DNA from: Bacillota bacterium
Lineage (GTDB): Bacteria > Bacillota > Negativicutes > Sporomusales > CTSoil-080
DNA length: 36,246 nucleotides
NCBI GenBank assembly: GCA_017889725.1
Contig: JAGGAE010000012.1
Coordinates: forward strand, 1-36,246
Direction of reading: 5' to 3'
Within the stretch, counting starts at the first letter, position 1. Each line of letters begins with the position of its first letter. The notes beneath the pieces are model-generated. The model was not told the origin of the DNA and made no database searches. It worked only from the letters and a program-made list of their open reading frames with translations. The translations under genes and the position numbers were made by a program. Below, piece after piece: positions 2,492 through 19,607 of this stretch.

Positions 2492-2504
2492 TATCTATCC
2501 ATGC

Positions 2505-3561: not shown

Positions 3562-4874
3562 GCACAGAATGTTGTTCTTCCAAGGACTTTTGCCCCCGTA
3601 CAAGAGCCATTGCCACTTGCTTGGGCGACGTACCGCCATAGGAGTTTCTTGCGGCAACGCAAGTCTCAATGGTGATAGCCTCTAGGATGTCATCAGAAAA
3701 TAGCGGTGAAAACTGCTTAAACTCTTCTAAGGATAAGTCGGTAAGCGTTTTATCCTGTTCTATACAATAGCGCACGCTTTTCCCCACAACTTCATGCGCT
3801 TGCCTGAACGGCAATCCCTTTTTAACCAGGTAATCTGCCATATCGGTGGCATTGGAAAAATCGTGGCGAAGAGTATTTAGCATTCTCTTTCCGTTGACCT
3901 TCATCCCCCTGAGCATCCCCGCATAAATCAAGAGGCTGAATTTCACGGTATCGATGGTATCGAACAGTCCTTCCTTATCTTCCTGCAAATCTTTATTATA
4001 GGCCAGAGGCAAGCCTTTGGCGACTGTGAGCAGAGCCATTTGATTGCCAAAAACCCGTCCGGTTTTTCCCCTCACAAGTTCCGCCACATCCGGATTTTTC
4101 TTCTGCGGCATAATGCTCGATCCGGTACAATGAGCGTCGTCCAGTTCGATAAACTGGAATTCGGCGGAAGACCACAGGATAATTTCTTCACTTAACCGGC
4201 TGAGGTGCATCATCAATATGGAGGAAAACGACATAAATTCCAGCATATAGTCCCGGTCACTGACCGCGTCCAGACTGTTGTCATATACTGCGCCGAAGTT
4301 AAGCTGTTCGGCTACAAAATGCCGTTAACCGTCCGAAATCACGGACAAGCATAAAGAAATACGCCAGCATATGATGGGCGAAAAGTATGGGCTGCGCCCG
4401 CTGCAGATGGGTGTATCCAGGCATAATAATATCCTGATGCTTTTGAGCGGTTTCCAGCAACGCTTTTTCGAGATCGGCCAAAAGCGCACCGATAGCAACG
4501 AGTTCGCGTTTCATATACATATGGGTATCCAAAGCGACCTGATCGTTCCGGCTACGAGCGGTATGGAGTTTACCGCCTACGGGGCCAATACGTTCGGTCA
4601 GCCTCTTTTCAATGTTCATATGGATATCTTCCAAGCCAATCTCAAAGTTGAAATTGCCTGCCTCGATATCCGCTTGTATCCCCTTCAGCCCGTCAATAAT
4701 AAGGTGGGCTTCCTCTTCTGTAAGGATGCCGCATTTGGCCAGCATGCGGGCATGAGCGACGCTTCCGGCAACGTCTTCTTTATACAGACGATTATCAAAA
4801 GAAATGGAGGAGGTAAACTCCTCCACCATTATGTCGGTACTTTTGGCAAATCTGCCGCCCCACAACTTACTCAT
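3533..4874 (-). pseudogene. argH: Argininosuccinate lyase, broken by an internal deletion with frameshift
   Basis: ArgH splits argininosuccinate into arginine and fumarate, the last arginine step. It starts at ATG 4874 (MSKLWGGRF), overlapping the end of argG by 8 bases, with AAGGGG upstream. The N-terminal part holds [11 protein letters not shown] and [10 protein letters not shown]. It loses frame after RDFGRLT near 4324 and meets a stop at 4299. The C-terminal part restarts in another frame as [21 protein letters not shown] and keeps the signature [13 protein letters not shown]. About 25 residues are absent, including the GAGALAGTTFPID segment conserved in the family. Both halves are otherwise normal and lack decay, which argues for a sequence or assembly error. 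Confidence 0.88.
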
Positions 4875-6084
4875 GCGTTTTCGCCCCTTGCTGCATAAGC
4901 GCCCGAATTTTGAGCGGCAATCCAAACAGGTTGATAAAGCCTTCCGCATCCTGCTGGTTGTAAACTTCATCCCGGCCAAAGGTAACAAAGCCTTCATGAT
5001 AGAGCGAATACGGCGATTTGGCTCCGGCGCTCATGATATTGCCTTTGTATAATTTAAGCCGCACAGTACCACTTACGGTAGCCTGAGTGGTATTAACGAA
5101 AGAATCAAGCGCTTCCCTCAGCGGGGAGAACCACATGCCGTCATAAACAAGTTCCGCATACCGAACGGCAATTTGTTCTTTGAAGTGCATAGTCGCCCGA
5201 TCCAAGGTTAAGTATTCCAGCTCTCTATGGGCAAAGTAAATGATAGCTCCACCTGGATTCTCGTATACGCCTCTGGACTTCATACCTACCAAGCGGTTTT
5301 CAACAATATCAACTATACCAATGCCGTTAGCCGCACCCAAGGCATTGAGTTTTTCCAAAAGAGGCACTGCATCCATTTTTTGACCGTCAACAGCTACAGG
5401 AATTCCTTTTTCAAATTGAATTTCCACATAAGTAGGAGTATCCGGCGCCTGTTCCGGCGTTTTGGTTACCATGTATACATCATCTTTTGGCGCATTCCAG
5501 GGATCTTCCAGGTCTGCTCCTTCATGACTTAAGTGCCAAATATTGCGATCCATGCTATAGGGCCGTTTTTTGGTAACAGGCACGGGAATGTTATGCTTTT
5601 CCGCATAATCAATGGCATCTTCCCGTGATTTAATATCCCACTGCCGCCAAGGAGCAATAATTTTTAAATGCGGAGCCAGGGCTTTAACAGTCAGCTCAAA
5701 CCGTACCTGGTCATTGCCCTTGCCGGTAGCTCCGTGTGCAATGGCGTCAGCGCCTTCTTTTTCCGCTATTTCAACTAAGGCCTTGGCAATAACCGGTCTG
5801 GCAAATGAAGTACCTAAGAGGTATTTTCCTTCGTATATTGCCCCGGCTTTCACCACCTGCCAAACGTAATCTTCCACAAATTCCTTTGTCAGATCCTGAA
5901 TATACACTTTGCTGGCCCCGGACTTTAAGGCTTTGTCATGGACAGGTTCCAGTTCTTCCCCTTGCCCTACATCGGCGCACATCGCAATAACTTCGCAATG
6001 ATAATTTTCCTTTAACCAGGGAATTATGACAGACGTATCCAACCCTCCGGAGTAGGCTAAAACCACTTTTTTTATATCGCTCAT
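4867..6084 (-). CDS. argG: Argininosuccinate synthase
   Basis: ArgG condenses citrulline and aspartate with ATP to give argininosuccinate, the penultimate arginine step. The 405-residue protein is full length, with the N-type ATP pyrophosphatase P-loop YSGGLDTS (residues 11–18), then [22 protein letters not shown] and the C-terminal REVYE-like [12 protein letters not shown] strong AAGGAGGAAG ribosome site precedes ATG 6084. It lies 13 bases after argF and its end overlaps argH, so it is an internal gene of the argCJBDFGH operon. No anomaly is visible. Confidence 0.97.
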
Positions 6085-6097: not shown

Positions 6098-7027
6098 TTA
6101 TACTCCGCCCATTACCAGGGCCAAAATTGCTTTTTGAACATGCAGGCGGTTTTCGGCTTCATCAAACACTACCGACTGCGGTCCTTCGATAACTTCTTCG
6201 GTGATTTCCTCATCCCGGTGGGCTGGCAGACAGTGCATAACAATAGCCCCCGGTTTAGCAAGCTTCATAACGCCGCTATTGATCTGGAACCCGGCGAAAT
6301 CCTGCTGCCGTTTGACCTGTTCACTTTCCTGCCCCATGCTGGCCCAAACATCGGTATATACCACGTCCGCGTCGCTTACCGCTGCCGAAATACGGTGATT
6401 AAGCGTTATTGTACTGCCAGTCAAGGCCGCGTCCTTTTCCGCCGCAGCGACAATAGCCGCATCCGGTTCATACCCCGGCGGCGTGGCGACGGCTATGTGC
6501 ATACCTACTTTGGCACATACCTGAATCAAAGAGTTAGCCATGTTATTGCCATCCCCGATATAGGTGAGTTTCCGACCTTTTAATTCTCCCTGATGCTCAA
6601 TAGCGGTAAACAAGTCGGCTAAAACCTGACAGGGATGAAGTAAATCAGTTAACCCGTTAATTATAGGGATATCGGCATATTTCGCCAGTTCTTCCACTTC
6701 CGCATGGGAATAGGTCCGGATCATAATGGCATCCAGATACCGCGACAATACCCGCGCGGTGTCTTTTATCGGTTCACCCCGGCCAATTTGCAGGTCGCTG
6801 GCCCCCAAAAACAAAGCCTGCCCCCCAAGCTGGCCCATACCGACTTCGAAGGAAACCCGAGTTCTGGTTGAAGCTTTTTGGAAAATCATCCCCAAGGTTT
6901 TTCCTTCCAGGAGGCGATGCGGTTCCCCTCTTTTGACTTTGTCCTTTAAATCTTTTGCTACCGCAAAGATTTTATGTATTTCCTCCAAGGATAATTGCTG
7001 AATGGATAACAAATCTTTTCCCTTCAC
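6098..7027 (-). CDS. argF: Ornithine carbamoyltransferase
   Basis: ArgF transfers the carbamoyl group of carbamoyl phosphate to ornithine, making citrulline. I chose GTG 7027 ([11 protein letters not shown]), eight bases after GGAGG; an in-frame ATG at 7042 overlaps that ribosome site and is unlikely. The 309-residue protein contains the carbamoyl-phosphate site STRTR (residues 53–57), HPCQ (131–134) and the ornithine/catalytic HCLPAHR near the C-terminus. These mark an anabolic-type OTC of normal length. It is placed between argD and argG in the operon. Confidence 0.96.
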
Positions 7028-7084
7028 CCATAAAACCTCCAAATATTATGCCTGCTACTCACTATCTATATAATACCAAGCTGG

Positions 7085-8275
7085 CTAAAACTTGGCCAGC
7101 ACCGAATCCAACACCGATACCATTTCATCGACATGTGTTTTTTGAATGGTAAGCGGCGGTACAAAACGTAGTACGTCTCCGGCGGTACAGTTGATGATAA
7201 TCCCTTTGTCCATACATTGATTGACGATGTCTTTTCCCGGTTTGGTTAACTTCATACCAACCATAAGGCCTAAGCCCCTTACCTCCGTAACAAGCGCCGG
7301 ATATTTTGCTTGCAGTTTGCGTAAGGTTTGCAGCAGGTATTGCCCCATACTTTCGGCATTATCGAGCAGCCGCTCTTCGGCGATGATATCCAGTACCGCG
7401 TTAGCGGCAGCCGTTGCCAGCGCGTTGCCGCCAAAGGTGGTACCATGATCGCCGGGAGCAAAAACTGACGCCACTTTTTCCGTTGCCAGAAAAGCTCCTA
7501 TCGGTACTCCACCGCCTAACCCCTTGGCCATGGTAACAATATCCGGTTTTAGTTTGGTATGCTGAAAAGCAAACAATTTGCCAGTACGTCCCATTCCGGT
7601 CTGAATTTCATCCAATACTAATAACGCTCCGCGGGACCGACAGATTTCTCCGGCTTTTTCCAGATAACCCGCATCCGGAATGTTAACTCCACCTTCTCCT
7701 TGAATGGGTTCCAGTATCACGGCACAGGTTTTATCCGTCACCTGTTTCTCCAAGGCGTCAATATCGTTATAAGGGATGTACCGGAAGCCTTGCGGCAAGG
7801 GTTCATACCCTTTTTGATATTTCGGCTGGGCTGTCGCCGTCAGCGTAGCTAGTGTTCTTCCATGAAAACAATTCTCCGTAGTTATAATTTCAACCCGGTC
7901 CGGGTTTAAGGTTTTTCCATATTTACGTGCTAATTTTATAGCCCCTTCGTTTGCCTCAGCCCCGCTATTGGCAAAAAATACGCGGTCGAGACCGCTTAAC
8001 TGCGCCAGCGTTTTGGCCAAAGTAGTTTGCGGGATGGTATGGTACAGGTTGGATACATGAATGAGTTTCGCTGCCTGCTCCGCAATGGCTGCTACCAGCT
8101 TCTTGTGGCCGTGTCCGACTACGTTAACGGCTATACCTGCAAGAAAATCCAGATACTTTTTGCCATTCGCATCGTACACATAGGGACCTTCCCCCTTGGT
8201 CAATACCAGAGGATACCGGGAAAATACCGGCATGTAATATTTTTTATCTGTTTCCATCACCTGGTTTGCATCCAT
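7085..8275 (-). CDS. argD: Acetylornithine aminotransferase
   Basis: ArgD is a PLP class-III aminotransferase that converts N-acetylglutamate semialdehyde to N-acetylornithine with glutamate as donor. The 396-residue protein has the phosphate-binding NSGAEANEGAIKLAR (residues 103–117), EPIQGEGG, the cofactor aspartate in LDEIQTGMGR (D222) and the Schiff-base lysine in MAKGLGGG (K251). ATG 8275 starts one base after the argB stop; an AAAGGAG lies inside the end of argB, so translation is coupled. Related GABA or succinylornithine aminotransferases look similar, but the operon settles the role. Confidence 0.96.
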   Translation of the reverse strand: MDANQVMETDKKYYMPVFSRYPLVLTKGEGPYVYDANGKKYLDFLAGIAVNVVGHGHKKLVAAIAEQAAKLIHVSNLYHTIPQTTLAKTLAQLSGLDRVFFANSGAEANEGAIKLARKYGKTLNPDRVEIITTENCFHGRTLATLTATAQPKYQKGYEPLPQGFRYIPYNDIDALEKQVTDKTCAVILEPIQGEGGVNIPDAGYLEKAGEICRSRGALLVLDEIQTGMGRTGKLFAFQHTKLKPDIVTMAKGLGGGVPIGAFLATEKVASVFAPGDHGTTFGGNALATAAANAVLDIIAEERLLDNAESMGQYLLQTLRKLQAKYPALVTEVRGLGLMVGMKLTKPGKDIVNQCMDKGIIINCTAGDVLRFVPPLTIQKTHVDEMVSVLDSVLAKF

Positions 8276-8276: not shown

Positions 8277-9170
8277 TCAGTCCATCTCCTTTACCACTTC
8301 GGTACCAATTCCGGTGTCAGTGAATATTTCCAGCAGCAAAGAATGCGGCTGCCTGCCATCAACAATATGCGTTTTTGCCGCCCCGCCTGATAACGCGCGG
8401 ATACAGGCTTCTACCTTGGGAATCATTCCCCCGTCAATGCTGCCCTCTTTTATCATTTTTTGTGCTTCAGAAAAGGTCAGTGTAGAAATAAAGGTATTTT
8501 TATCGTGATAGTCATGGTAAATGCCTTCTACATCGGTAAGAAGTACCAGTTTTTCCGCTTTGAGCGCGCCGGCAATTTCTCCGGCTACATAGTCCGCATT
8601 AATATTATAGCTTTCGCCCGCCTCGCCTACCCCGATGGGAGCTATGACCGGAATATAGTCGGAGTCGATCATGCTGTGTAGAATGCCGGGATTTACTTGT
8701 GTAACATCCCCGACAAACCCGATGTCAACCTCTTTCACCGTATCTTGTTCGTGTACCTTTGCCAAATGCTTGGCAGCCACCAATAAACTGGCGTCTTTTC
8801 CATTCAGCCCGACAGCTTTTGCCCCATACTGGTTTAATAGGCCGACGATTTCCGTATTGATTTTACCGACCAGCACCATTTCAGCCACGGCTACTGTTTC
8901 GGCGTCTGTTACTCTAAGCCCACTGACAAAATCGGATTTTTTGCCCATTTGCTGAAGCATAGCTGTGATTTCCGGCCCCCCGCCATGCACAACTACCGGG
9001 CGTAATCCAATGTATTTCATCAGAATAATATCCTGAATCACACTGCGCTTTAGTTCATTATTGATCATAGCGTTGCCGCCGTATTTAATTACTACTGTTT
9101 TGCCGCCGAACTTTTGAATGTAGGGCAGCGCTTCAATAAGCACTGTCGCTTTTTCTACCGTTTTGAGCAT
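8277..9170 (-). CDS. argB: Acetylglutamate kinase
   Basis: ArgB phosphorylates N-acetylglutamate with ATP. The start is ATG 9170 (MLKTVEKATVLIEALPYI), preceded by AGGGAG; a longer open frame upstream has no support. The 297-residue protein shows the amino-acid-kinase motifs IKYGGNAM (residues 28–35) and VHGGGPEI (61–68), and LTDVEGI in the ATP half. The N-terminal helix KATVLIEALPYIQKF resembles that of hexameric, arginine-inhibited NAGKs, so feedback control by arginine is likely (inference). It abuts argD. Confidence 0.96.
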   Translation of the reverse strand: MLKTVEKATVLIEALPYIQKFGGKTVVIKYGGNAMINNELKRSVIQDIILMKYIGLRPVVVHGGGPEITAMLQQMGKKSDFVSGLRVTDAETVAVAEMVLVGKINTEIVGLLNQYGAKAVGLNGKDASLLVAAKHLAKVHEQDTVKEVDIGFVGDVTQVNPGILHSMIDSDYIPVIAPIGVGEAGESYNINADYVAGEIAGALKAEKLVLLTDVEGIYHDYHDKNTFISTLTFSEAQKMIKEGSIDGGMIPKVEACIRALSGGAAKTHIVDGRQPHSLLLEIFTDTGIGTEVVKEMD

Positions 9171-9195: not shown

Positions 9196-10404
9196 TCAGG
9201 TGCTATAATCGGCGTTAATTTTGACGTATTCATAAGAAAAATCACAAGTCCAGACAGTAGCTTGTGCCGTCCCCTGCCCAAGCTGGATTTCCACATTGAT
9301 ATCCCGCTCTTTCATAACCTCTTGTAAAGCGTGAATGTCCGGTTTTGCGTCAACACCGTCTTTGACAATGGTAATGCCGCCAAGAGCCAGCGTAGTTTTA
9401 TTTTGATCCACCTCGGCACCAGAGTAACCGACAGCGCATAATATACGTCCCCAGTTCGGATCTTGACCAAAAAAGGCAGTTTTTACAAGCGGCGACTTCG
9501 CCACCGACATCGCGGCCTTTTTCGCATCCTGAAAGCTGGCAGCGCCTTTCACTTGAATCTCAAGGAATTTGGTAGCTCCTTCCCCGTCCTGCACTACCTG
9601 TTTCGCCAAATAGATGCAAACCTCTTTTAATGCCGCTACGAATTCTTTATAGACGCTAGTTTTGGTCGAGTCAATCACTTTATTCGTTGCCTGACCGCTG
9701 GCCATTACGCTAATCATATCGTTGGTACTGGTATCGCCGTCTACGGTAATCATATGGAAGGACACGTCTACACACTCTTGGAGAGCTGCCTTAAGAACTG
9801 CCGGGCTGATTGCCGCATCGGTAGTAATAAAACACAGCATAGTCGCCATATTGGGATGAATCATGCCTGCGCCTTTCGCAATACCGGCAATGCGGGCTTT
9901 TGTGCCGTCCAAGTCAAATTCAAACGCACATTCTTTAGTAAAGGTGTCTGTGGTCATAATCCCTTTTATGGCTTTACTATGTCCGTCTTTTGAAAGCGCC
10001 GTAGACGCTTTTTTTATTCCGGCCGTAACTTTATCCATCGGCAAGTTGACACCAATAATTCCAGTGGAAGCCACCAATACATCATTGAATTCGACACCAA
10101 GCGCTTCAGCGGCCACGGTCGCCATAGTTTTTGCATCGGCCAGGCCCTGTTCTCCCGTTGATGCATTCGCACAGCCAGAGTTCACTACAGCCGCCCTGAG
10201 CCAACCGTTCTCCACGGCCTGCCGCGATACAAGAACAGGAGCCGCCGCCATGGCGTTCGTGGTAAACATCGCCGCCGCTGCCGCCGGGACTTCACTAAAA
10301 ATAATGGTAACATCTTCTTTGCCGCTTTTCTTTATGCCGGCTTTTACTCCGGCTGCTGTAAACCCTTGCGGTGCACAGACACCGCCGGTAATATTCTTCA
10401 TCAT
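9196..10404 (-). CDS. argJ: Glutamate N-acetyltransferase / amino-acid acetyltransferase
   Basis: ArgJ recycles the acetyl group from acetylornithine to glutamate and, in bifunctional forms, also uses acetyl-CoA to start the pathway. The 402-residue precursor contains the self-cleavage and nucleophile site GMIHPNMATML, with Thr188 as the predicted N-terminal nucleophile of the beta chain, and the VNSGCANA oxyanion region (residues 74–81). The end, VKINADYST, resembles the family's conserved C-terminus. ATG 10404 (followed by a second ATG) has GGAGGAGAA upstream. No argA-like gene or argE is visible, which fits the cyclic pathway. Bifunctionality cannot be told from sequence alone. Confidence 0.95.
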   Translation of the reverse strand: MMKNITGGVCAPQGFTAAGVKAGIKKSGKEDVTIIFSEVPAAAAAMFTTNAMAAAPVLVSRQAVENGWLRAAVVNSGCANASTGEQGLADAKTMATVAAEALGVEFNDVLVASTGIIGVNLPMDKVTAGIKKASTALSKDGHSKAIKGIMTTDTFTKECAFEFDLDGTKARIAGIAKGAGMIHPNMATMLCFITTDAAISPAVLKAALQECVDVSFHMITVDGDTSTNDMISVMASGQATNKVIDSTKTSVYKEFVAALKEVCIYLAKQVVQDGEGATKFLEIQVKGAASFQDAKKAAMSVAKSPLVKTAFFGQDPNWGRILCAVGYSGAEVDQNKTTLALGGITIVKDGVDAKPDIHALQEVMKERDINVEIQLGQGTAQATVWTCDFSYEYVKINADYST

Positions 10405-10445
10405 GCTCGTTCTCCTCCATAAAATGATAGATTTCGGTTTCTAAC

Positions 10446-11320
10446 TCACGGATAGAGCGGTGCTTGCATCAATCCGGTTTTTTCATCCAGGCCAAACAAT
10501 ATATTCAAGTTTTGTACCGCTTGCCCGGCCGCCCCTTTTACCAGGTTATCGATGGCGGCTACCGCAACAACGCGTCCTGCCCGGCTGTCTATATGCCAGC
10601 CAATATCACAGAAATTAGATCCTCTGGTGTTTTTCGTAGCAGGATACCCGCCTTGGCCTAAAAGCCGGATAAAATATTCATCGCCATAGCTTTCTTCATA
10701 CGCCTGGGTAACAACTTCAGCTGTAGTCCCAGCTGTAAGCGTTCCATAACAGGTACTAAGAATTCCCCGGGTCATGGGAATGAGATGGGGTGAAAAGGTA
10801 ACGACCACTTCGGCTCCCGCCTGTTCGCTGAGTTTTTCTTCTATCTCCGGCGTATGACGGTGACCGCCGATATTGTATGGCCGTACATTCTCAAAGGTTT
10901 CACTAAAATGGTTGGTCAGACTCAGCCCCCGCCCTGCTCCTATACGGAAGGAGCATCGGTATGTGTATGTTCTACCTTGTACCATTTCTGATACACTTCA
11001 GTATCATTAAACCGGTAATCTGCCCCTAAATCGATAACCTTAGTACCGGCAGCCAATAATGTTTTACCGGCAGCCATAGCGTGCCCGTGGGGCAGGGCTA
11101 AAAAAACAACGTCGCTTTCAGCGGCGATTTGCTCCAGCTGCCGCATGCTTGATAAGGGTTTGCTGTAGTGATGATTAAGGTGAGGATAGACATTGTTTAT
11201 GCTTTCACCGGTTTGGTTTTCCGATGTAATATGCGCAATTTCAACTGCCGGATGGACCGCCAAAATGCGGAGCAATTCTTCCCCCGTATACCCTGTAGCC
11301 CCAATAATGCTTACCTTCAT
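10446..11320 (-). pseudogene. argC: N-acetyl-gamma-glutamyl-phosphate reductase, broken by an internal deletion with frameshift
   Basis: ArgC reduces N-acetylglutamyl phosphate with NADPH. The N-terminal part, from ATG 11320 (GGAGG upstream), has the Rossmann motif GATGYTGEELLRIL and continues to WYKVEHTHTDAPSV, where the frame meets a stop at 10940. The C-terminal part is in another frame from GAGRGLSLTNHFSE through GSNFCDIG to PLYP and is normal. About 50 residues are absent between them, normally carrying YGLPE, the catalytic cysteine motif NPGCYPT and VDAKSGVSGAG. The product could not be active. It is the first gene of the arginine operon, so an assembly error is more credible than a natural mutation. 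Confidence 0.88.
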
Positions 11321-11340
11321 TTGTCAGCCTCCTTTGCGTT

Positions 11341-11375
11341 TTTATAATTATACATCTTTATGTATAAAAATTCAA
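11341..11375 (-). promoter_or_regulatory. argC operon promoter overlapped by two ARG boxes
   Basis: On the minus strand TTGAAT (11370–11375) and TATAAT (11347–11352) are 17 bases apart, a strong sigma-A-type promoter for the arginine operon. Two palindromic sites resembling the ArgR/AhrC half-site pattern TGAAT-N4-ATTCA overlap it: 11361–11374 (TGTATAAAAATTCA, 9 of 10 fixed positions) covers the -35 side, and 11341–11354 (7 of 10) covers the -10 box. Their centres are 20 bases apart, about two helical turns, as in known double ARG boxes. Arginine-dependent repression by ArgR is inferred. Confidence 0.7.
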
Positions 11376-11452
11376 TACATATTTGCACTTTCTTCCTTCA
11401 AAATAGAATTTTGTTTTTTCACAATTTTCCGTTTCTGTATAATTCCCCAACC

Positions 11453-11492
11453 AGAAAGAATAAAAACCGCTAATGCGGTTTTTATTCTTTCT
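11453..11492 (-). terminator. Terminator of the cwlD–amr operon
   Basis: A perfect 18-bp stem (11453–11470 with 11475–11492) encloses a TAAT loop, with a core of AAAAACCGC/GCGGTTTTT. It follows the amrS stop by 22 bases and precedes the argC promoter on the same strand. The symmetrical A/T flanks would allow termination in either direction. Confidence 0.85.
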
Positions 11493-11514
11493 ACTATATC
11501 GTTTTAACACTAAA

Positions 11515-12507
11515 TTAGAAAGCCGTAGTACCAACAACGGCAATGGATTCTCCGCAAGTTGGGCACTGGTTATTGCCGGTCAGATAGCTTCGGGCATGCA
11601 TCCGGTCAATGACCAGCGTTTCGCATTGCGGACAAAAGGTATTGGCTCCTTGTTTGCCGGTGTTTCCCAGATAGACATAATTCAAATGCTTTTTTGCGGC
11701 TTGATACGCCGCTTCCAGTGTGCTATGCGGTGTTGGCGGAATATCCATTTTATAGTTGGGAAAGTAGCGGGAAAAGTGAAGAGGTATATCCCGGTCAAGC
11801 TCTGCCAGCCATTTTGCCAGATCTTCCAGTTCCGACAAGTTATCATTATGTCCTGGGATAACTAAGCAGGTGATTTCTACATGGGCGGCGCGTACTGCCA
11901 ACTCGACGGTTTGTTTAACGGCACTGAGCCAGCCGGAGCAAAGGTCTGAATAAAAGGTTTCATTAAAGGCTTTAACATCTATGTTGAATGCATCTATATA
12001 AGGCATAAGTTCTAAGAGTGGTTCCTTATTGAGAAAGCCGTTGGTTACCAGCACATTCTTGAAACCTCTTTGCTTAACCTCTTTCGCCGTTTCCAGCACA
12101 AATTCATACCATACCCCCGGCTCCGAATAGGTATAGGCCACACCGATATTCCGCTTGTCCACCCGCTGCGCCTGTTCTGCCACTTCCTTCGGTGACAAAG
12201 GCACTGTGGATGGCTTTTGCTGGGCTATGTGCCAATTTTGGCAAAACCGGCAGGTAAAATTACAGCCCCAACTTCCTAATGACAAAATCCAACTTCCAGG
12301 ATAGAAATGATACAAGGGTTTCTTTTCTATCGGATCTATCGCGCTCGACGTACATTCACCATAATTCTCTGCGTACAGAATACCTCCCTGATTGGTTCGT
12401 GTCCGGCAAAATCCGTTTTTCCCTTCACCGATAGAGCAATCGCGCGGACAGAGACGGCAAACTGTCATCCCTTGTTCTTTAGCTTCAAAATATCTGGCCT
12501 CCAGCAA
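11515..12507 (-). CDS. amrS: AmmeMemoRadiSam system radical SAM enzyme
   Basis: This 330-residue radical SAM protein carries the 4Fe-4S motif CNFTCRFC (Cys82, Cys86, Cys89), an N-terminal cysteine cluster CRLCPRDC with a further cysteine at 34, and a C-terminal zinc ribbon CPQC...CPTC. The family is encoded with Memo-like and AMMECR1-like proteins across prokaryotes; its substrate is not established to my knowledge. The start is TTG 12507, seven bases after GAGGTG; it sits 12 bases after amrA. The PflA-like core and the IDVKAF and PGHND segments fit family members well. It is intact and ends the operon. Confidence 0.9.
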   Translation of the reverse strand: MLEARYFEAKEQGMTVCRLCPRDCSIGEGKNGFCRTRTNQGGILYAENYGECTSSAIDPIEKKPLYHFYPGSWILSLGSWGCNFTCRFCQNWHIAQQKPSTVPLSPKEVAEQAQRVDKRNIGVAYTYSEPGVWYEFVLETAKEVKQRGFKNVLVTNGFLNKEPLLELMPYIDAFNIDVKAFNETFYSDLCSGWLSAVKQTVELAVRAAHVEITCLVIPGHNDNLSELEDLAKWLAELDRDIPLHFSRYFPNYKMDIPPTPHSTLEAAYQAAKKHLNYVYLGNTGKQGANTFCPQCETLVIDRMHARSYLTGNNQCPTCGESIAVVGTTAF

Positions 12508-12519
12508 CCCCCATCACCT

Positions 12520-13041
12520 CTATGTATACCTTGTTACCCGAAACCGGTAAAGTTCAACGCTTTCGTGGGGGCCAATCCCCGCTTTTTGTTTGGCTATACT
12601 AACCTGCTGGTCTACTGTGTCTACCCCTTCTAAATCCGGCAATAGCAGCCCCGACCTTCTTCCACTCCGAACGATGACTCCGTACACCTTAGGGTCAAGT
12701 TCTTGGTGAGATTGTACAGGTTCAGGCTCGCCTAATATGTCAACAGAAATTGTGATCTCGTCTAATTCTTCCGCTCTAACCGGATTAAACCGGGGATCAA
12801 CCGTTGCCGCTTTGACCGCATTATGAATGATTTCATCGGCAACTGTAGGCTGCGTGGACTGTATAGTTCCAATGCATCCCCGCAACTCTCCGCCTTTTTT
12901 AAGCGACACAAACGTTCCGGCCTGCCCCTCTAAAACTGGGTCACTGTAATCGCCGGATAACAGGGTACCCTTAGTTACATAGTGTTCCAAACTTCTCCGG
13001 GCTAAGGCCACCGGTACACTATTCTCACTCACTGTCTTCAC
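12520..13041 (-). CDS. amrA: AMMECR1-domain protein of the AmmeMemoRadiSam system
   Basis: The protein (about 170 residues) has the AMMECR1 hallmark LRGCIGT (LKKGGELRGCIGTIQ, residues 47–61), then DPRFNPV and the family-like ISVDILGEPEPV. GTG 13041 or GTG 13032 could start it; AAGAAGG is better spaced for 13032. Either way it overlaps the end of amrB (17 or 8 bases), so translation is probably coupled. AMMECR1 proteins are cytosolic with no settled biochemical role. Full length, no anomaly. Confidence 0.9.
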   Translation of the reverse strand: MKTVSENSVPVALARRSLEHYVTKGTLLSGDYSDPVLEGQAGTFVSLKKGGELRGCIGTIQSTQPTVADEIIHNAVKAATVDPRFNPVRAEELDEITISVDILGEPEPVQSHQELDPKVYGVIVRSGRRSGLLLPDLEGVDTVDQQVSIAKQKAGIGPHESVELYRFRVTRYT

Positions 13042-13766
13042 CTTCTTGCATCATACATAATATGACTCCATACCCTACACCGAACGGTCCTTCGTAGGAT
13101 AACATTTTCACTTTGCTGTGCAGCCCTCCTAAGACCCCCATCATAAAGGCCGAAGGCCTAAGACCGCATTCACCGGCTTCCTCTACTAACTCAGCATCCA
13201 TATTCAAGATGGCCTTGGCATCCATAGCAACAATCTTTTCCAGCAGCAATTTATCAAATTCCGTCCCCCGCGGGCTATAACCAGCCGGAGCTTCCGGCGT
13301 CAGCCTGTGTGATAAATCGCCCGAGGCGATGACTGCCACCTTTTTATCAACTAAGCCGATAGCTGCCTGTACTGCCTTTCCAAACGTATACATTTCCTCA
13401 TACGGTAAGAACCCTACCGTGACATGAACCAGCTGTCCTCTAAAACCTGCCTCGTGAAGATAGTACAGCGGCACCATTGCTCCGTGGTCCAGTTCCATGG
13501 AAAACCGGTAGGTGTTGGCTACTTCATCCGTTATTTCCATAGTATTAATACCCAAATGTTCCGCTTTGCGTAATATATGCCTGACAAGCTGGCCGTCCGT
13601 CTCATACCCCAGCAAGCACCGTTTGGACACCTAGCTTTTTCACTGTTTCAGCTACTTGCTGTGCCGCACTGATAGTGGCCTGGACTTTTTTACACTCCTC
13701 CCGCCCCACCTCAGGCACCATAATCGGTGGATGCGGCATCAATGCACAAACCACTAAATTTTTCAC
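13025..13766 (-). pseudogene. amrB: Memo-like protein of the AmmeMemoRadiSam system, broken by an internal deletion with frameshift
   Basis: The N-terminal 54 residues, from GTG 13766 (AGGAG seven bases upstream), read MKNLVVCALMPHPPIMVPEVG, typical of Memo/LigB-fold AmrB, then reach an in-frame TGA at 13602 after GVQTVLAGV. The rest is in another frame, from YETDGQLVRHILRKAEHLGI through SGDLSHRLTPEAP (conserved histidine site) to the end. About 35–40 residues are missing between 'QTV' and 'YETDG', including the SPHGP motif expected there. LigB-fold members bind metal through such histidines, so the product would be inactive. Both halves are otherwise normal. Confidence 0.83.
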
Positions 13767-13786
13767 ATCACCACTCCTCTCAGCGG

Positions 13787-14506
13787 TTATCTTGCCACGG
13801 AATGACTAAAATGATACGCCAATGCTTTCGCAATATGCTCCACAAGATTCTTCTGGTATGTCGGATTGGCTAGTAGGTCCGCCTCCCTCGGATTACTTAA
13901 AAAACCTGTCTCTACCAAAATTCCGGGAACATCAATATTTTTCAATATCAGAATATTTAAATCCTTCCTAGCCTGACGTTTATTCCCGGGCGGGAAATTT
14001 CTAAGAGACTGTTGCACAATCTCAGCTATATCTATATTTTGCTGTAGCTTGGGATTATAGTAGACCTCCGCCCCAAACCATTCCTTACCTCGTATAGCAT
14101 TAGTATGAAGGCTAACGAATAGGTCGGCACCAGACTGATTGATAATGCTAACGCGCTTCAGAAGGTCGTTTCTTTTCCCGCCTTTTCCCCTAGTGTAATA
14201 ATCTATATCGCAGTCCCTGGTAAGCACAACATTCGCGCCATACGTCTTTAACACTTGTGCCAAAGAAACCGCTAATTCCAAAGTAATATCTTTTTCAATC
14301 TGCCCGTTATACCGAGCCCCGCTGTCAATTCCGCCATGCCCCGGGTCAATAGCAATGGTTCTGCCGGAAAGCACCGACAGGTCCACACCTTCCACTTCCT
14401 CTATCGTAGGCTTACTTTCGGCCCATAGACGAACGCCAAGCACAACCAACATGCTAACAGCCAGTACCAGGCGTAGGCTCTTCTTTTTTAATCGCACAAT
14501 GAACAT
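13787..14506 (-). CDS. cwlD: N-acetylmuramoyl-L-alanine amidase CwlD (spore cortex)
   Basis: CwlD is a zinc amidase that, with PdaA, produces muramic-delta-lactam in the spore cortex, which is needed for germination. The 239-residue protein has an N-terminal membrane anchor (about residues 9–28) and an Amidase_3 domain: IAIDPGHGG (zinc His57), the glutamate in QIEKDITLE (about 71), SLHTNA (second His) and the catalytic VETGFLSN. The length matches CwlD (about 237). ATG 14506 follows GGGGGATATAAGAA. The amr genes start 20 bases downstream, suggesting one transcript. A general autolytic amidase is the alternative, but length and a lone domain favour CwlD, implying an endospore former. Confidence 0.85.
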   Translation of the reverse strand: MFIVRLKKKSLRLVLAVSMLVVLGVRLWAESKPTIEEVEGVDLSVLSGRTIAIDPGHGGIDSGARYNGQIEKDITLELAVSLAQVLKTYGANVVLTRDCDIDYYTRGKGGKRNDLLKRVSIINQSGADLFVSLHTNAIRGKEWFGAEVYYNPKLQQNIDIAEIVQQSLRNFPPGNKRQARKDLNILILKNIDVPGILVETGFLSNPREADLLANPTYQKNLVEHIAKALAYHFSHSVAR

Positions 14507-14583
14507 TTCTTATATCCCCCAAATGTGTATTCTCAAAAACCATATGCGATTATCGTAAAAGGTATGTCGCAAGCTTAGCCATC

Positions 14584-14612
14584 TGGTCAAATTATTGTAT
14601 GTAGGGTAAAAT
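14584..14612 (+). promoter_or_regulatory. Candidate promoter of the glycosyltransferase gene
   Basis: TGGTCA (14584–14589) and TAAAAT (14607–14612) are spaced by 17 bases, 4 of 6 and 5 of 6 consensus matches, placing a start near 14619 and the AAGGGGG ribosome site shortly after. It lies in the 137-base divergent region between cwlD and this gene. I found no convincing sigma-G or sigma-A site for cwlD on the other strand. Confidence 0.4.
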
Positions 14613-14643
14613 GATGGTAGAGTTTACATTAAAGGGGGTACCT

Positions 14644-15393
14644 ATGCGTTTAGGCAAATTTTTACTTTTACTTTTTTTAGTTTTTGGTGCTGCCTTTTAC
14701 TGGGCTGACAGTAATGTTAAACAAACTCCATCATCATCTGCCATAAGCATAGATGATGATGCCTCCTTTTTTCACAGAGTATACCGCGTCTTTGCCTTAA
14801 AAAAAGAGATAAATGCTAAAGTAAGTAAGGTAAACTATACTCGGATTAAGGACATACCTTTGGTGCTTCAGCAATCGATTATTGCAGTGGAAGACAACCG
14901 GTTTTATCATCATTACGGTTTTGACATTGAAGGAATTCTCCGTGCCATGTTGGTAAATCTTCAACGCGGCGAAGTTGAAGAAGGCGGCAGCACAATCACC
15001 CAGCAATTGGTCAAGAACCTCTTTCTTACCCATGAACGAACCTGGGGCCGTAAATTAGAAGAAGTGATCCTTTCTATCGACATGGAATTACGCTACTCTA
15101 AAGAAGAGATTCTGGAGCTATACCTTAACTCCATTTATTTTGGCTCAGGGGCAACGGGCATTGCCGATGCGGCAAAAATTTATTTTGATAAGCCCCCTTC
15201 TGAGCTTAACCTAGCAGAAAGCACTATGTTAGCCGGACTTCCCAACGCGCCCTCTCTATATTCACCCTACGTTGATTTCGCTGCGGCCAAACAGCGGCAA
15301 GCCGTGGTTTTATCTGTTTTGGTCAAACACGGATACATAGGCCCAAGTACCGCAGACGAGGCAAAAACAGCTCGTCTTAGACTGGCTAAGTAA
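14644..15393 (+). CDS. Monofunctional biosynthetic peptidoglycan glycosyltransferase (GT51)
   Basis: The 249-residue protein polymerises lipid II into glycan strands outside the membrane. It has an N-terminal anchor (about residues 5–20) and a GT51 domain with the catalytic-glutamate motif EDNRFYHHYGFD (83–94), GGSTITQQLVKNL (114–126), RKLEE, ELYLNSIYFG and LNLAESTMLAGLPNAPS. No penicillin-binding transpeptidase domain follows; the gene ends at the point where the GT domain normally ends, so it resembles MtgA or SgtB rather than a truncated class-A PBP. I chose ATG 14644 with AAGGGGG four bases before it, over an unsupported ATG at 14611. It is the only intact plus-strand gene. A long hairpin follows directly. 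Confidence 0.9.
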   Translation: MRLGKFLLLLFLVFGAAFYWADSNVKQTPSSSAISIDDDASFFHRVYRVFALKKEINAKVSKVNYTRIKDIPLVLQQSIIAVEDNRFYHHYGFDIEGILRAMLVNLQRGEVEEGGSTITQQLVKNLFLTHERTWGRKLEEVILSIDMELRYSKEEILELYLNSIYFGSGATGIADAAKIYFDKPPSELNLAESTMLAGLPNAPSLYSPYVDFAAAKQRQAVVLSVLVKHGYIGPSTADEAKTARLRLAK

Positions 15394-15395
15394 CG

Positions 15396-15445
15396 ATTAC
15401 TAGAAGGGGGGGCAACCCGTACAGGTTGTCCCCCCTTCTAGTAAT
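15396..15445 (+). terminator. Long perfect hairpin after the glycosyltransferase gene
   Basis: Two 22-base arms (15396–15417 and 15424–15445) pair fully except for one G·U, with a 6-base CGTACA loop and a run of G pairs in the stem. It begins two bases after the stop codon. The expected T-run is only TTT (15445–15447) before unrelated sequence, so termination could be weak, or the T-run may have been lost at a sequence junction. Confidence 0.65.
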
Positions 15446-15451
15446 TTCAGG

Positions 15452-15814
15452 ATGCTGGCCTATGGTATCTATATAATGTTCGTAGTAACTGCAATGGACG
15501 CGATTGGTTCAGCTTTTCAATTTTGGATTTATCCCATCAAATTATTTCCTGTAGTTCCTGATTCAGTGGGTATTGATTGGGGGTTTTTAGCGGTCGGGCA
15601 CATGCTGATATACCAGTACTTTCCACGGTGGAAATCATTTATTATTGTCGAGATTAGCTTTGCCGCTTTCCTGGCATTTATAGGTGAACCGCTTGCTGAG
15701 TGGTGCGGATTCTATTTTGTATTGCATTGGTATCACACCTGGTCGTTCCCCATTTATGTTATGAAAGCTGTTATTGGGAAATGGTTAATGGAAAAACTTA
15801 TATTGCGTAAATAG
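15452..15814 (+). pseudogene. CBO0543-like membrane protein, probably missing its N-terminus
   Basis: The frame encodes 120 hydrophobic residues with about four membrane segments. The central GHMLIYQYFPRWKSFI, the segment AFIGEPLAEWCGFY and the end WYHTWSFPIYVMK resemble the CBO0543 family of small integral membrane proteins found in spore formers; their function is unknown. Family members are, as I recall, about 160 residues, so one N-terminal helix or more seems absent. The first ATG (15452) has no ribosome site; the frame is open back to a stop at 15401–15403, through the preceding hairpin. I read it as a 5'-truncated gene, or a victim of the same sequence loss seen in neighbouring genes. 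The family call is from memory. Confidence 0.55.
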
Positions 15815-15947
15815 GCAATATTGGGATACCGTTTTATCGGTAAAAGAGCCTGTTCCTAAAAACTAGCCCAACTGCTGATTATTTGGAACACAAAATGCGA
15901 CTAGCTTCTTGATACGTTTCAAAATTAGAATTGTAACCTAAATAAAA

Positions 15948-15995
15948 AAGCTACCGCTAGAAAAACTTTGTTATCAGTTTTTCCAGTGGTAGCTT
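15948..15995 (-). terminator. Terminator-like hairpin, minus orientation
   Basis: A 19-base stem (15948–15966 with 15977–15995) has one G·U and one mismatch, a 10-base loop and, on the minus strand, six T in a row after the stem. There is no intact minus-strand gene directly upstream, so the transcript it would end is unknown. Confidence 0.55.
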
Positions 15996-16002
15996 CAGAG
16001 GC

Positions 16003-16029
16003 AAAAAAAGCACCTTACAAAGGTAAGGT
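16003..16029 (-). terminator. Short terminator-like hairpin, minus orientation
   Basis: ACCTTAC (16012–16018) pairs with GTAAGGT (16023–16029) around a 4-base loop, followed on the minus strand by GC and seven T (16003–16009). It would serve a transcript from 16030–16200 or back up the rpsI terminator. Confidence 0.5.
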
Positions 16030-16200
16030 AAAGTGAAAAGTGTGTTGTATATTTTTATAATACCTTATTATTGTTACATTTTTGTTACGAATTCTTTACT
16101 ATTTTGAATATTTTTGTGTAAGGTGACAAACGGAATTGTTGTGCTTTCAAATTACAAAAGAAGTCCCTGATCTCCCACTTAAAAGCTTTATTATTTTAAA

Positions 16201-16231
16201 AACCCGCACAAACTTTGCGTTTGCGCGGGTT
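16201..16231 (-). terminator. rplM–rpsI terminator
   Basis: The arms 16201–16212 and 16220–16231 pair at 11 of 12 positions (core AACCCGC/GCGGGTT) with a 7-base loop. On the minus strand the stem is followed by a short T-run and AT-rich DNA. It lies 15 bases after the rpsI stop. Confidence 0.8.
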
Positions 16232-16246
16232 TTGTTGTTGGTAATA

Positions 16247-16592
16247 TTAACGTTTTGAGAACTGAGAAGCTTTACGGGCTTTTTTGAGGCCGTATTTCCG
16301 ACGTTCTTTTTCACGCGGGTCACGGGTCAAAAGACGCCCGCGCAATACCATGACGAACAGCACCTGCCTGTCCGGTAGGACCGCCACCTTGTACCTTCGC
16401 CAAAACATCATATTTGCCAAGTGTATCGGTAACGTTGAGCGGTTGTTTTACAATCAGCTCTAACGTTTTTAAACCAAAGTACTTGTCCAGAGGGCGATCG
16501 TTGACAATGATGTTGCCCTCGCCCGGAACCAAACGAACTCTGGCAACCGAGGTTTTTCTGCGGCCTGTGCCGTAGTAGTTAACCAATGCCAT
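16247..16592 (-). pseudogene. rpsI: 30S ribosomal protein S9, with a short internal deletion and frameshift
   Basis: S9 contacts 16S rRNA near the P site. From ATG 16592 the frame reads [21 protein letters not shown] through [18 protein letters not shown], then shifts near 16334 and hits a stop at 16320–16322. The C-terminus continues in another frame, [28 protein letters not shown], ending at 16247 with the universal SKR tail. About 15 residues (LL-DPEYRPALKKAG in relatives) are missing. S9 is needed for growth, so a true mutation this severe is improbable. It follows rplM by 23 bases, as in most bacteria. Confidence 0.9.
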
Positions 16593-16615
16593 ATACTTGT
16601 TCCTCCTTCCGGTAA

Positions 16616-17053
16616 TTATCGAACGTTAATTTCGAGTATTTCTGGTTGCTGTGCATCATGCGGATGGGTTGATCCGCGATATACTTTCAGCTTGCGGTAC
16701 ATTTGACGACCCAGGCTGTTTTTCGGCAGCATGCCTTTTACAGCAATTTCCAACAGTCTTTCCGGTCTTTCGGCAAGCATTTTACCAGCGGTAGTAAAGG
16801 TGGTACCGCCTGGATACCCGGAATGACGGAAGTAGGTTTTCTGTACCAATTTTTTACCTGTCAAATGAACTTTAGCGGCATTTATAATGATCACATGATC
16901 GCCGGTGTCCACATGAGGGGTATATGTCGGTTTATGTTTACCGCGCAGAATTTTAGCAACTTCAGCAGCAAGTCTACCAAGTGTTTTGCCTTCTGCGTCA
17001 ACAACGTACCATTTACGTTCTATATTGGCTTGATTAGCCATAAACGTTTTCAT
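16616..17053 (-). CDS. rplM: 50S ribosomal protein L13
   Basis: L13 is an early-assembly 23S rRNA-binding protein. The 145-residue sequence is complete: [48 protein letters not shown] and the [14 protein letters not shown] tail. ATG 17053 follows AGGAGGGAT; a second in-frame ATG (17041, [11 protein letters not shown]) lacks a ribosome site. It has its own promoter and structured leader, and is co-transcribed with rpsI. Confidence 0.97.
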
Positions 17054-17092
17054 TCGATATCCCTCCTTGTTGCAAGCGTATATTACAATATT

Positions 17093-17135
17093 ATTTTGGC
17101 CTTTATTCCGGGGCTAATGGAATATATGGCAAAAT
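17093..17135 (-). ncRNA. Structured 5' leader of rplM–rpsI, candidate L13 leader
   Basis: In the transcribed strand an outer stem ATTTTGCC (17128–17135) pairs with GGCCAAAAT (17093–17101, one bulge), enclosing an inner stem TATTCC (17119–17124) with GGAATA (17104–17109). The fold starts a few bases after the predicted start site. Firmicutes are known to carry an autoregulatory L13 leader before rplM; position and form agree, but the match to that family's consensus was not tested. Confidence 0.5.
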
Positions 17136-17146
17136 CTCACGAAGAT

Positions 17147-17175
17147 ATTGTATTAAAAAGAGAAGTCAATGTCAA
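17147..17175 (-). promoter_or_regulatory. Sigma-A-type promoter of rplM–rpsI
   Basis: On the minus strand a consensus TTGACA (17170–17175) and TACAAT (17147–17152, 5 of 6) are separated by 17 bases. Transcription would start near 17140, giving a leader of about 87 bases ahead of rplM. This separates rplM–rpsI from truA. Confidence 0.75.
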
Positions 17176-17220
17176 GGGATTTCCCTTGTCTTATCATATT
17201 TTTTCTTCAAACCGGTTTAA

Positions 17221-17958
17221 TTAGTAAAAGATTTCTTTTAAGTATAACCCTTGCGGCGGTGCAGTTATTCCAGCCTGAGCACGATTACAGCCTTGCAAAA
17301 TATTCCGAAAATCAGATACGGTCTTTTTTCCCGTACCGACATCTACCAAAGTTCCTACTATGTTACGAACCATGTGGTAGAGAAACCCGGTCCCCTGTAT
17401 TTGAATTTCAATTATTTCGTGATCTTGCCTGCAGTTTGCCGCCAACATTGTGCGTACTGGGCTAATGGGAGGACCACCTGCGCCGCGAAATGCCGAAAAA
17501 TCGTGCTCGCCGATAACAGCTTGTATAGCCTCATGCATGAGAAGAACGTCCAAATTCTTCCTAATGTGCCAGACATAGTTACGCTGAAAAGGGTTTGGCA
17601 GAGGACTCACGTAAAGACGGTATTGATAAATTTTACTTTTGGCAGAGTAACGGGCATGGAAATCGTCCTCAACCTCTTCTGCCTTGGTAATGACAATATC
17701 TCCCGGCAGCACGCTTTTGGCCGCGTAAGGAACTTTTTCGGTGGGTATAGAACCATAGATAACAAATGAAATAACTTGCCGGTAAGCGTGGACTCCGGCA
17801 TCCGTGCGTGCCGCTCCAAATACTGTTATCGGATGCCCAAATATTTTCCCAAGCTTTTCCTCTAGTACCTCCTGCACGGTAATGGCATTAGCCTGTCGTT
17901 GAAATCCGTGGTAGGCAGTACCGTCATAGGCAACCGTTAGCTTTAGTTTGCGACCCAT
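17221..17958 (-). CDS. truA: tRNA pseudouridine(38-40) synthase TruA
   Basis: TruA isomerises uridines 38–40 in the anticodon stem of many tRNAs. The 245-residue protein starts at ATG 17958 (MGRKLKLTVAYDGTAYHGFQRQ) with GGTGG upstream, inside the end of ecfT. It contains the catalytic aspartate in GAARTDAGVHA (Asp53), then DDFHARYSAKSK and GTGFLYHMVRN. Full length. The order ecfA1-ecfA2-ecfT-truA-rplM-rpsI is standard in Firmicutes. Confidence 0.96.
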   Translation of the reverse strand: MGRKLKLTVAYDGTAYHGFQRQANAITVQEVLEEKLGKIFGHPITVFGAARTDAGVHAYRQVISFVIYGSIPTEKVPYAAKSVLPGDIVITKAEEVEDDFHARYSAKSKIYQYRLYVSPLPNPFQRNYVWHIRKNLDVLLMHEAIQAVIGEHDFSAFRGAGGPPISPVRTMLAANCRQDHEIIEIQIQGTGFLYHMVRNIVGTLVDVGTGKKTVSDFRNILQGCNRAQAGITAPPQGLYLKEIFY

Positions 17959-18746
17959 CGTAAACCACCAACACACGCTATAACTATAAGGGCTACAACA
18001 AACGCCAGCCAGTCTCGCATATGATACTTGAGTTCTTTCATACGGGTCCGGTTTTCACCGCCCCGGTAACAGCGCGCCTCCATGGCTACTGCTAATTCAT
18101 CAGCCCGTCGAAAGGCGCTTATGAATAAGGGTACCAATAAAGGGACCATATTTTTGACTCGCTGCAATATGTTGCCATGGATAAAATCTGCCCCTCTCGC
18201 GGTTTGCGCCTTCATAATACGGTCGGTTTCTTCCAGCAGGGTAGGTATAAACCGGAGGGCAATGGTCATCATCATAGCAATTTCATGGGCCGGTAAGCCA
18301 ATGCGCCGAAACGGGCTTAATAGGTGTTCCACCCCGTCCGTCAATACGAGAGGAGATGTAGTAAGAGTGAGTATGGAAGCGATAATAATGAGTAATACCA
18401 GCCGGACCGTCATGAACAAAGCCTGCTGGAGCCCTTCCATCGTTGCGGTGAGTGGTCCTATGTTCAGGATTACCGTCCCTGGTGTAGAAAATATATGAAC
18501 GCTGACGGTAAGCAGGATTAAGAGCCACAAAGGTTTTATCGAACGGGCTATATGCTTAATCGGCACTCCCGCTTTACTTATGATAAATCCGCTAAATAGT
18601 ATAAGCAGTCCGTACGAAGAATAATTGCCTGCCAGAAATATTCCACCGAAAAACAGCAACGTAATGAATATTTTTATACGTGGATCCAATCTGTGAATAA
18701 TTGAATTTCCTGGAAAATATTGTCCAAGGGTGATATCCGTCAGCAT
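17943..18746 (-). CDS. ecfT: ECF transporter transmembrane component EcfT
   Basis: EcfT is the membrane scaffold that links the two ATPases to interchangeable substrate-binding S proteins for vitamins and metals. The 267-residue protein has the usual five or so membrane helices (for example LWLLILLTVSVHIF, VRLVLLIIIASILTL, WLAFVVALIVIACV) and the two coupling motifs, AQTARGAD and AMEARCYRGG, which dock in the ATPases. ATG 18746 begins directly after the ecfA2 stop. No S-component gene is present here, as expected for a shared (group II) module. Confidence 0.93.
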   Translation of the reverse strand: MLTDITLGQYFPGNSIIHRLDPRIKIFITLLFFGGIFLAGNYSSYGLLILFSGFIISKAGVPIKHIARSIKPLWLLILLTVSVHIFSTPGTVILNIGPLTATMEGLQQALFMTVRLVLLIIIASILTLTTSPLVLTDGVEHLLSPFRRIGLPAHEIAMMMTIALRFIPTLLEETDRIMKAQTARGADFIHGNILQRVKNMVPLLVPLFISAFRRADELAVAMEARCYRGGENRTRMKELKYHMRDWLAFVVALIVIACVGGLRWVAN

Positions 18747-19607
18747 TTACCTTTTTCGCCCCCTTGCCGCCAAAATGGCATCTGTTGCTGCTTCTGGTGT
18801 AAGAGGCATACCTTCGACGGTTAGCCCCCGTTCCGACAGTTCGGCTAACAATGTGCATACACTTGGAACATCGACACCGGCGACAGCAAGTTTTTCTCGT
18901 CCATGGCGAAATACTTCCTGGGGTGGTCCATCCAGGCCGATCATTCCGTCATTCATTACGATCAGCCTGTCGGCCAGTTTAGCCACTTCCTCCATGCTAT
19001 GAGACACAAGTATAACAGTGGTTTCCGTGGTTTTGTGCAACTCGAGAATTTGCTCCAGTATTTCTTCCCGCCCGCGCGGGTCGAGTCCGGCAGATGGTTC
19101 ATCCAAAATCAAGTATTCTGGTTCCAAAGCTATGACTCCAGCTATGGCAACCCGCCGCATCTGTCCACCGCTAAGCTGAAAAGGAGATCGTTTGCCAAAG
19201 GCTTCCCTATCAAGCCCGACGAACTGTAAGGCGCTGGTCACTCTTCGTTCTACTTCCTCGGAACTAAGCCCAAGATTGCGCGGACCAAAAGCAATGTCTT
19301 CATAGATGGTTTCTTCGAAAAGCTGGTGTTCAGGATATTGAAAGACCATCCCCACTTTTCGCCGTGCGTTCCGTGCAGGCATCCCTTTTGCGTTAAGATC
19401 TATACCTTCCACCGAAACCGTTCCCTGGCTAGGTTTTAATATTCCATTCATATGTTGGACCAAGGTAGATTTACCTGAGCCCGTATGACCTATAATCCCA
19501 ACAAATTCGCCTTGTTTAATTTCAAGGTTTATATTTTTTAACGCTGTTTGTTCAAACGGTGTTCCGGCCATATAGACATAGTTAACATCAGTAAATACTA
19601 TGGACAT
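18747..19607 (-). CDS. ecfA2: ECF transporter ATPase EcfA2
   Basis: The 286-residue ABC ATPase has Walker A GHTGSGKST (residues 40–48), the Q-loop FQYPEHQLFEETI, signature LSGGQMRRVAIAG, Walker B LILDEPSAGLDP and the switch histidine in LVSHSMEE. FQYPEHQLF and the SGGQMRR signature are typical of EcfA2 (EcfA'). ATG 19607 was chosen, four bases after GGAGG; it overlaps ecfA1 by 10 bases. The partner ATPase is ecfA1; together they energise vitamin uptake. Confidence 0.93.
   Translation of the reverse strand: MSIVFTDVNYVYMAGTPFEQTALKNINLEIKQGEFVGIIGHTGSGKSTLVQHMNGILKPSQGTVSVEGIDLNAKGMPARNARRKVGMVFQYPEHQLFEETIYEDIAFGPRNLGLSSEEVERRVTSALQFVGLDREAFGKRSPFQLSGGQMRRVAIAGVIALEPEYLILDEPSAGLDPRGREEILEQILELHKTTETTVILVSHSMEEVAKLADRLIVMNDGMIGLDGPPQEVFRHGREKLAVAGVDVPSVCTLLAELSERGLTVEGMPLTPEAATDAILAARGRKR

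Follow-up and report, generated by a model that had tools for sequence, protein, structure and literature searches.

Is the promoter ahead of argC in this Bacillota bacterium also an arginine operator and, if so, which genes would it control and through which repressor? The locus was analysed within a stretch of 36,246 nucleotides, which we call the window. From the sequence evidence described below, the site is very probably an ArgR/AhrC feedback-repression operator of the ordinary kind, serving the argCJBDFGH operon of a Negativicutes bacterium.

The argC promoter, its ARG boxes and the operon

The promoter TTGAAT-N17-TATAAT, reported in a preliminary description of this DNA, is indeed found on the minus strand at 11375..11347, with 10/12 consensus matches in the promoter scan. 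The -35 hexamer TTGAAT lies at 11370..11375 and the -10 hexamer TATAAT at 11347..11352, i.e. the spacer is 17 nt long. The distance from the 3' end of the promoter (11347) to the A of the argC ATG (11320) is 27 nt, and a Shine-Dalgarno sequence, AAGGAGG, occupies 11328..11334 on the same strand. A transcription start near 11340 would give argC a leader of about 20 nt.

ARG boxes were scored using the published E. coli consensus, as quoted in the excerpt of PMC5291005, and the B. subtilis and Streptomyces consensus sequences were also tried. The upstream box (box 1, 11359..11376, minus strand) covers the -35 hexamer and is strong. It matches the E. coli consensus at 14/16 positions on the minus strand and at 15/16 on the plus strand, and the B. 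subtilis consensus at 16/18 on the plus strand, and it is the top single box of the window under both. The downstream box (box 2, 11339..11356, minus strand) covers the -10 hexamer and is weaker, with 12/16 matches to the E. coli consensus on both strands. In other words, at each element there is an 18-bp imperfect palindrome near TNTGAATWWWWATTCANW, close to it in box 1 (15/16) and at just 12/16 in box 2. The box centres are 20 bp apart, with 2 bp between the 18-bp boxes; this falls within the 20-21 bp, or about two helical turns, expected of tandem boxes, although it is not the exact 21 bp of E. coli. The operator therefore lies over the promoter of an arginine gene, one box per promoter element and 20 bp apart, as had been claimed. 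The extent first given, 11341-11375, located the site correctly but was slightly too narrow, the operator running over 11339..11376.

A divergent promoter on the plus strand, TTGTCA-N16-TATAAT (11321..11348), has 11/12 matches, which is above the 10/12 of the argC promoter. It was set aside because it reuses the palindromic TATAATTATA and because no plus-strand gene was seen among the open reading frames.

The genes that follow are all on the minus strand. NCBIfam calls argC (10446..11320, read as two ORFs, both pieces being called), argJ (9196..10404), argB (8277..9170, from the ATG at 9170), argD (7085..8275), argF (6098..7042) and argG (4867..6084), while argH (3533..4874, two ORFs) was identified from its sequence and from comparison with the congener, whose copy is intact. 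argC is split because about 160 bp that are present in the congener are absent here (160 bp, at 10940). Congener sequence is also missing from argH (74 bp at 4324), ilvE (114 bp at 2703), cdaA (118 bp at 2087), a Memo-like gene (101 bp at 13613) and rpsI (47 bp at 16335); some of the names among these gapped genes were read from the sequence. The fact that gaps are spread across several conserved genes suggests that the assembly is faulty, not that the operon has decayed, and the argC gap is probably an assembly artefact.

The seven genes argCJBDFGH are likely to form one transcription unit. This layout fits the earlier proposal that a single site governs seven genes, but the number is less secure at the downstream border. 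Between argH and ilvE, which NCBIfam calls downstream of the arg genes, the scans list just a weak terminator-like hairpin (3504..3488; 6409..6393 in the congener locus L035), so ilvE could be transcribed by read-through as an eighth gene. ilvE also has a promoter of its own at the end of argH, TTGACA-N18-TATAAT with 12/12 matches (3561..3532, minus strand), which is conserved in the congener (L035, 6464..6435), and downstream of the gene there is a hairpin with a T run (2492..2470; L035, 5286..5259). At the upstream border a 16-bp perfect inverted repeat with T/A runs (11455..11490) was read by eye and is absent from the scan; it is a possible bidirectional terminator, which would insulate the arg operon from the upstream radical-SAM-like gene.

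Two other structures were seen in the window. Inside the start of argH lies a conserved hairpin of 10 pairs with T-rich sequence after it (4827..4803, minus strand; L035, 7804..7780), which perhaps reflects just protein conservation. The window's only Rfam match, an S10-Clostridia ribosomal protein leader (RF03136, 35998..36081, minus strand), heads the ribosomal operon.

Conservation and spacing of the element in relatives

Scoring of the site with ArgR/AhrC models, the check proposed in the preliminary description, gave a divided answer. The box pair ranks first in the window under all three consensus sequences, but it exceeds the shuffled sequences only under that of E. coli (27/32, against a maximum of 25 in 40 dinucleotide shuffles). 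With the B. subtilis consensus it scores 25 where the best shuffle reaches 26, and with the Streptomyces consensus both stand at 27, so that neither maximum is beaten and the window alone suggests an operator without proving it. The argC promoter by itself is also unremarkable, since 23 promoter-like sites occur in 10001..21000 as compared with 17.9 (sd 4.7) in shuffles. The footprint in the relatives is stronger evidence against chance than the shuffles of the window.

According to argJ, the closest relatives are two Bacillota MAGs (81 and 78% identity), followed by Negativicutes MAGs, Sporomusa, Pelosinus and Propionispora. Loci without an argC start were dropped (16/80 in one set; 3/30 in another, namely L010, L016 and L021). 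The 91 argC upstream regions that were kept yielded 80 unique ones, nearly all from Negativicutes; L147, L209 and L210 are not Negativicutes by title. The composite element is present at 20/24 or better in 68 of the 80 regions, our own window included, whereas none of 400 base-shuffled upstream regions reached this score (maximum 19). In the other 12 regions a convincing site is absent by this score.

The conservation of single positions was assessed on 72 of 83 sites, a set with laxer de-duplication that includes a few near-copies. The GTATAAT core of box 2 hardly varies across the aligned sites; the TATnCA columns of box 1 vary about as little as the -10 hexamer, and the TAT that follows the -10 is somewhat less constant. 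We note that this invariance arises partly by construction, i.e. the aligned sites were selected on a score covering the same columns, and 68/80 is therefore a fairer measure than the column counts.

Some loci carry additional repeated or conserved sequence nearby. Those of the Sporomusa type (L006, L012, L019 and others) have a further conserved TGTATACATGAATAC-like stretch just 5' of box 1, and in L064, L066 and L011 the stretch that separates the operator from the first arg gene has repeated G-rich units that include CAAGACTTGGC.

The spacing of the boxes takes two values. Among the 68 qualifying regions, window included, it is 21 bp in 54 and 20 bp in 14. In the alignments the promoter spacer tracks the box spacing wherever TTG starts the site, being 18 nt with 21 bp and 17 nt with 20 bp. 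A quick ArgJ tree was built from 67 of these 68 loci; among its 20-bp rows, L178 and L198 have atypical sites of unsure spacing. Parsimony on this tree gives 7 changes of the spacing label, at least 3 of which are forced by well-supported branches. A tentative interpretation, which we consider possible and would not put more strongly, is that a fused operator-promoter exists throughout the Negativicutes, in which box 1 is the -35 and box 2 the -10 element, and that its spacing has switched several times with the two functions coupled. In such a fused element a one-base change would alter the box spacing (20/21 bp) and the sigma spacer (17/18 nt) together, and operator strength and promoter strength would evolve together. 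The alternation between 20 and 21 bp in step with the promoter spacer is the sole part of these results that we would call new, and mildly so.

In the window's own family 20 bp appears to be the rule, since a symmetric 21-bp pattern, found at 8 places in the genomes G000, G001 and G002 (control 1), preceded no recognised arginine-biosynthesis gene there. ARG-like double boxes spaced at 21 bp (3 mismatches) were seen about 205 nt before a citrate-synthase-like gene, so named from its sequence, in both our genome and the congener (L243, 1501..1535, and L245).

Other genes preceded by the element, and the repressor

A search pattern derived from the argC sites was run over 41 genomes and all matches were inspected. 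There were 62 matches in 33 of the genomes, as compared with 6 for the reversed pattern. Arginine-biosynthesis genes follow 24 of them and amino-acid-binding lipoprotein genes 13, and the remaining 25 either lie before genes with no obvious part in arginine metabolism or coincide in part with a site that is in the tally already. The 24 consist of 11 heads of arg operons (10 argC, 1 argJ), 10 N-acetyltransferase genes, one argG, one argD-like gene and one type-2 argC, the last two being calls of a family search. Matches with at most 2 mismatches precede arginine or binding-protein genes in 22 of 24 cases. As the pattern was drawn from argC, the fair figure for a regulon omits the 11 operon heads, which gives 26/51 overall and 11/13 at no more than 2 mismatches. 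The element is both conserved and common to other arginine genes.

A few assignments in this tally need explanation. The site in G014 (L064), which lies 544 nt before argJ with a repeat array between, was counted with the arg operons; the site in G024 (L057) precedes an acetyltransferase gene but was matched on the other strand; in G034 two matches overlap at one place, one being tallied under argG and one under the rest; and L124, near a contig end, has no gene downstream in the matched direction. The binding proteins other than that of L034, the argG of L045, recN and the genes of the remaining 25 matches were named by reading their sequences.

In the organism's own genome there are two matches, the argC site with 0 mismatches and one located 29 nt before an amino-acid-binding-protein gene. 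The best NCBIfam matches of the binding protein fall below the cut-off; its nearest PDB matches are binding domains of a glutamine transporter and an ancestral reconstruction, with the arginine-binding ArtJ further down. The acetyltransferase gene matches NF005840 (PRK07757-type, related to amino-acid N-acetyltransferases). Two checks were independent of the argC-derived pattern. In the first, the regions 5' of 30 of the 37 matching acetyltransferase genes were scanned with the E. coli consensus and tested against base shuffles. A box pair with p<0.05, mostly at 20 bp, was present in 21 of the 30 loci, and 20 of these 21 pairs end 8-22 nt before the start. Our own genome has such a pair (p = 0.015, 21 bp), and the congener (p 0.06) is among the 9 non-significant loci. 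In the second, a symmetric double-box pattern free of promoter sequence was found at 10 places in G000, G001 and G002 (control 1), 7 of which precede argC (3), an argD-like gene (1), the PRK07757-type N-acetyltransferase (2) and a binding protein (1).

Individual matches elsewhere touch on other pathways. In L069 a carbamoyltransferase-like gene, read as pyrB, has a match with 2 mismatches about 515 nt in front of it, a possible link between arginine and pyrimidines. In L049 and L103 (G037 and the congener G002) matches with 2 and 3 mismatches precede the gene of a small ACT-domain-like protein, the domain being assigned by reading.

The preliminary description had regarded an argR gene in the genome as a check on its reading and the lack of one as a refutation. 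Formally the latter applies, in that neither PF01316 nor PF02863 found an argR in the organism's own 1.79-Mb MAG, but this assembly is 65% complete and the nearest relatives have a standard ArgR. The gene is present once each in the congener (G002) and in the other family member (G001), both near-complete genomes. Of 60 genomes of the class, 55 carry it, and ours is one of the five without it. The congener's ArgR passes TIGR01529 (154.6 bits, cut-off 130.45) but scores below threshold with the other listed ArgR models. Its helix-turn-helix stretch, VTQATVSRDIKEL, recurs without change in 1f9n, an arginine repressor/activator in the PDB. In the congener, argR (L037, 7867..8319) sits between a methyltransferase-like gene and recN (neighbour names read from the sequence). 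A recN protein query had no match in our genome, in a search run without its own positive control. DNA of the congener's argR region gave a single 40-base match, inside an ORF read as miaB, which is uninformative at such divergence. Given the 65% completeness and that recN is also unmatched, the MAG probably just fails to cover the argR locus.

Alternative readings, repression and known systems

ARG boxes and sigma-70 hexamers share words such as TTG-N-AT and TATAAT-like sequences, so it is conceivable that the site is an ordinary strong AT-rich promoter with an accidental likeness to ARG boxes. Box 2 is mostly the -10 hexamer plus TTAT-like sequence, and the pair stays within the shuffle range for two of the three consensus sequences. 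However, the TATnCA of box 1, which is outside both hexamers, is nearly invariant over the 72 aligned, score-preselected sites, and the TAT 3' of the -10 is well kept among the same preselected sites. Accident would also have to account for the contrast between 68/80 real and 0/400 shuffled regions and for the arginine and binding-protein genes at 7 of the 10 places of the promoter-free pattern, and we consider it very improbable. Alternatively, the operator may be real in the lineage but a relic in a species that has lost argR. The lack of argR in the assembly and the deletions in argC, argH and ilvE would agree with such a loss, but the incompleteness of the MAG extends to recN (in the search without a positive control), both other family members carry argR in near-complete genomes, the argC site is intact and is accompanied by a second site before the binding-protein gene, and the similar gaps in rpsI and cdaA point to the assembly. 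A relic is scarcely to be expected under these circumstances. The reading as an ArgR-type operator, on the other hand, is well supported by the footprint in most relatives, by the element at other arginine genes and by the presence of ArgR in the nearest relatives.

ArgR is a hexamer. When arginine is plentiful, arginine-loaded ArgR would occupy both ARG boxes; with the -35 hexamer inside box 1 and the -10 inside box 2, there should be no room for RNA polymerase beside the bound repressor, and initiation would stop. When arginine is scarce, the repressor would leave and the near-consensus promoter would fire. We infer the binding of arginine-loaded ArgR at this site, the presence of ArgR in the organism, the role of arginine as co-repressor and the exclusion mode. 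The tight repression predicted in the preliminary description is likewise conjectural, and the downstream box is weak. Exclusion is suggested by the overlap of boxes and promoter and by precedent in E. coli, where, in the excerpts of the respective papers, ArgR and polymerase are described as mutually exclusive at carP2 (PMC6245113) and artJ (PMC6640053). ArgR could also bind here and repress by another route, such as a block of the open complex or DNA bending. According to PMC6640053, ArgR excludes polymerase at artJ but acts in another way at hisJ, so the repression mode is promoter-specific, and box 2 is weak in our case. Nevertheless, both hexamers are inside boxes here, and the mutual exclusion at carP2 is reported (PMC6245113) for boxes that overlap the -35 partly. 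We regard a route other than polymerase exclusion as unlikely. Control of argC by an RNA leader (T-box, riboswitch or attenuator) was considered separately; there is no Rfam match there at gathering thresholds, and the predicted leader, about 20 nt long, could not accommodate such a structure, so this reading was rejected.

If the operator reading is right, textbook ArgR control is extended to the Negativicutes by sequence evidence from many genera, and the likely regulon members can be named, i.e. the argC operon, the PRK07757-type acetyltransferase and the amino-acid-binding protein. The operators with 20 and 21 bp make up a natural series for asking how spacing sets repression. A search of a literature collection on Negativicutes, on Veillonella, Selenomonas, Sporomusa and Pelosinus, and on the comparative genomics of Firmicutes returned no paper on the ArgR regulon of Negativicutes among the matches listed; the one paper found for Negativicutes by name deals with histidine.

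The comparison with known systems is drawn from excerpts of the papers cited. The site resembles E. coli carAB P2 and artJ in having tandem 18-bp ARG boxes over a promoter, which arginine-bound ArgR represses there (PMC6245113, PMC6640053). In E. coli, however, the boxes are separated by 3 bp (21 bp centre-to-centre) and lie over the -35, whereas here 2 bp separate them (20 bp) and each hexamer has its own box. The Listeria monocytogenes argCJBDF and argGH operons are also similar, with ARG boxes by which a Gram-positive ArgR represses the arg operons (PMC5291005). The differences are that the biosynthesis genes of L. monocytogenes are in two operons and that binding was observed there by EMSA, while the site described here is predicted from sequence. 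The ArgR regulon of Clostridium acetobutylicum, as far as the excerpt of PMC3828012 describes it, likewise has ARG-type sites in front of its arg biosynthesis operons and, by prediction, in front of a gene for an amino-acid-binding protein, and an ArgR operon without an identifiable site of its own. There the arg genes are distributed over several operons, whereas in the present case a single site heads argCJBDFGH.
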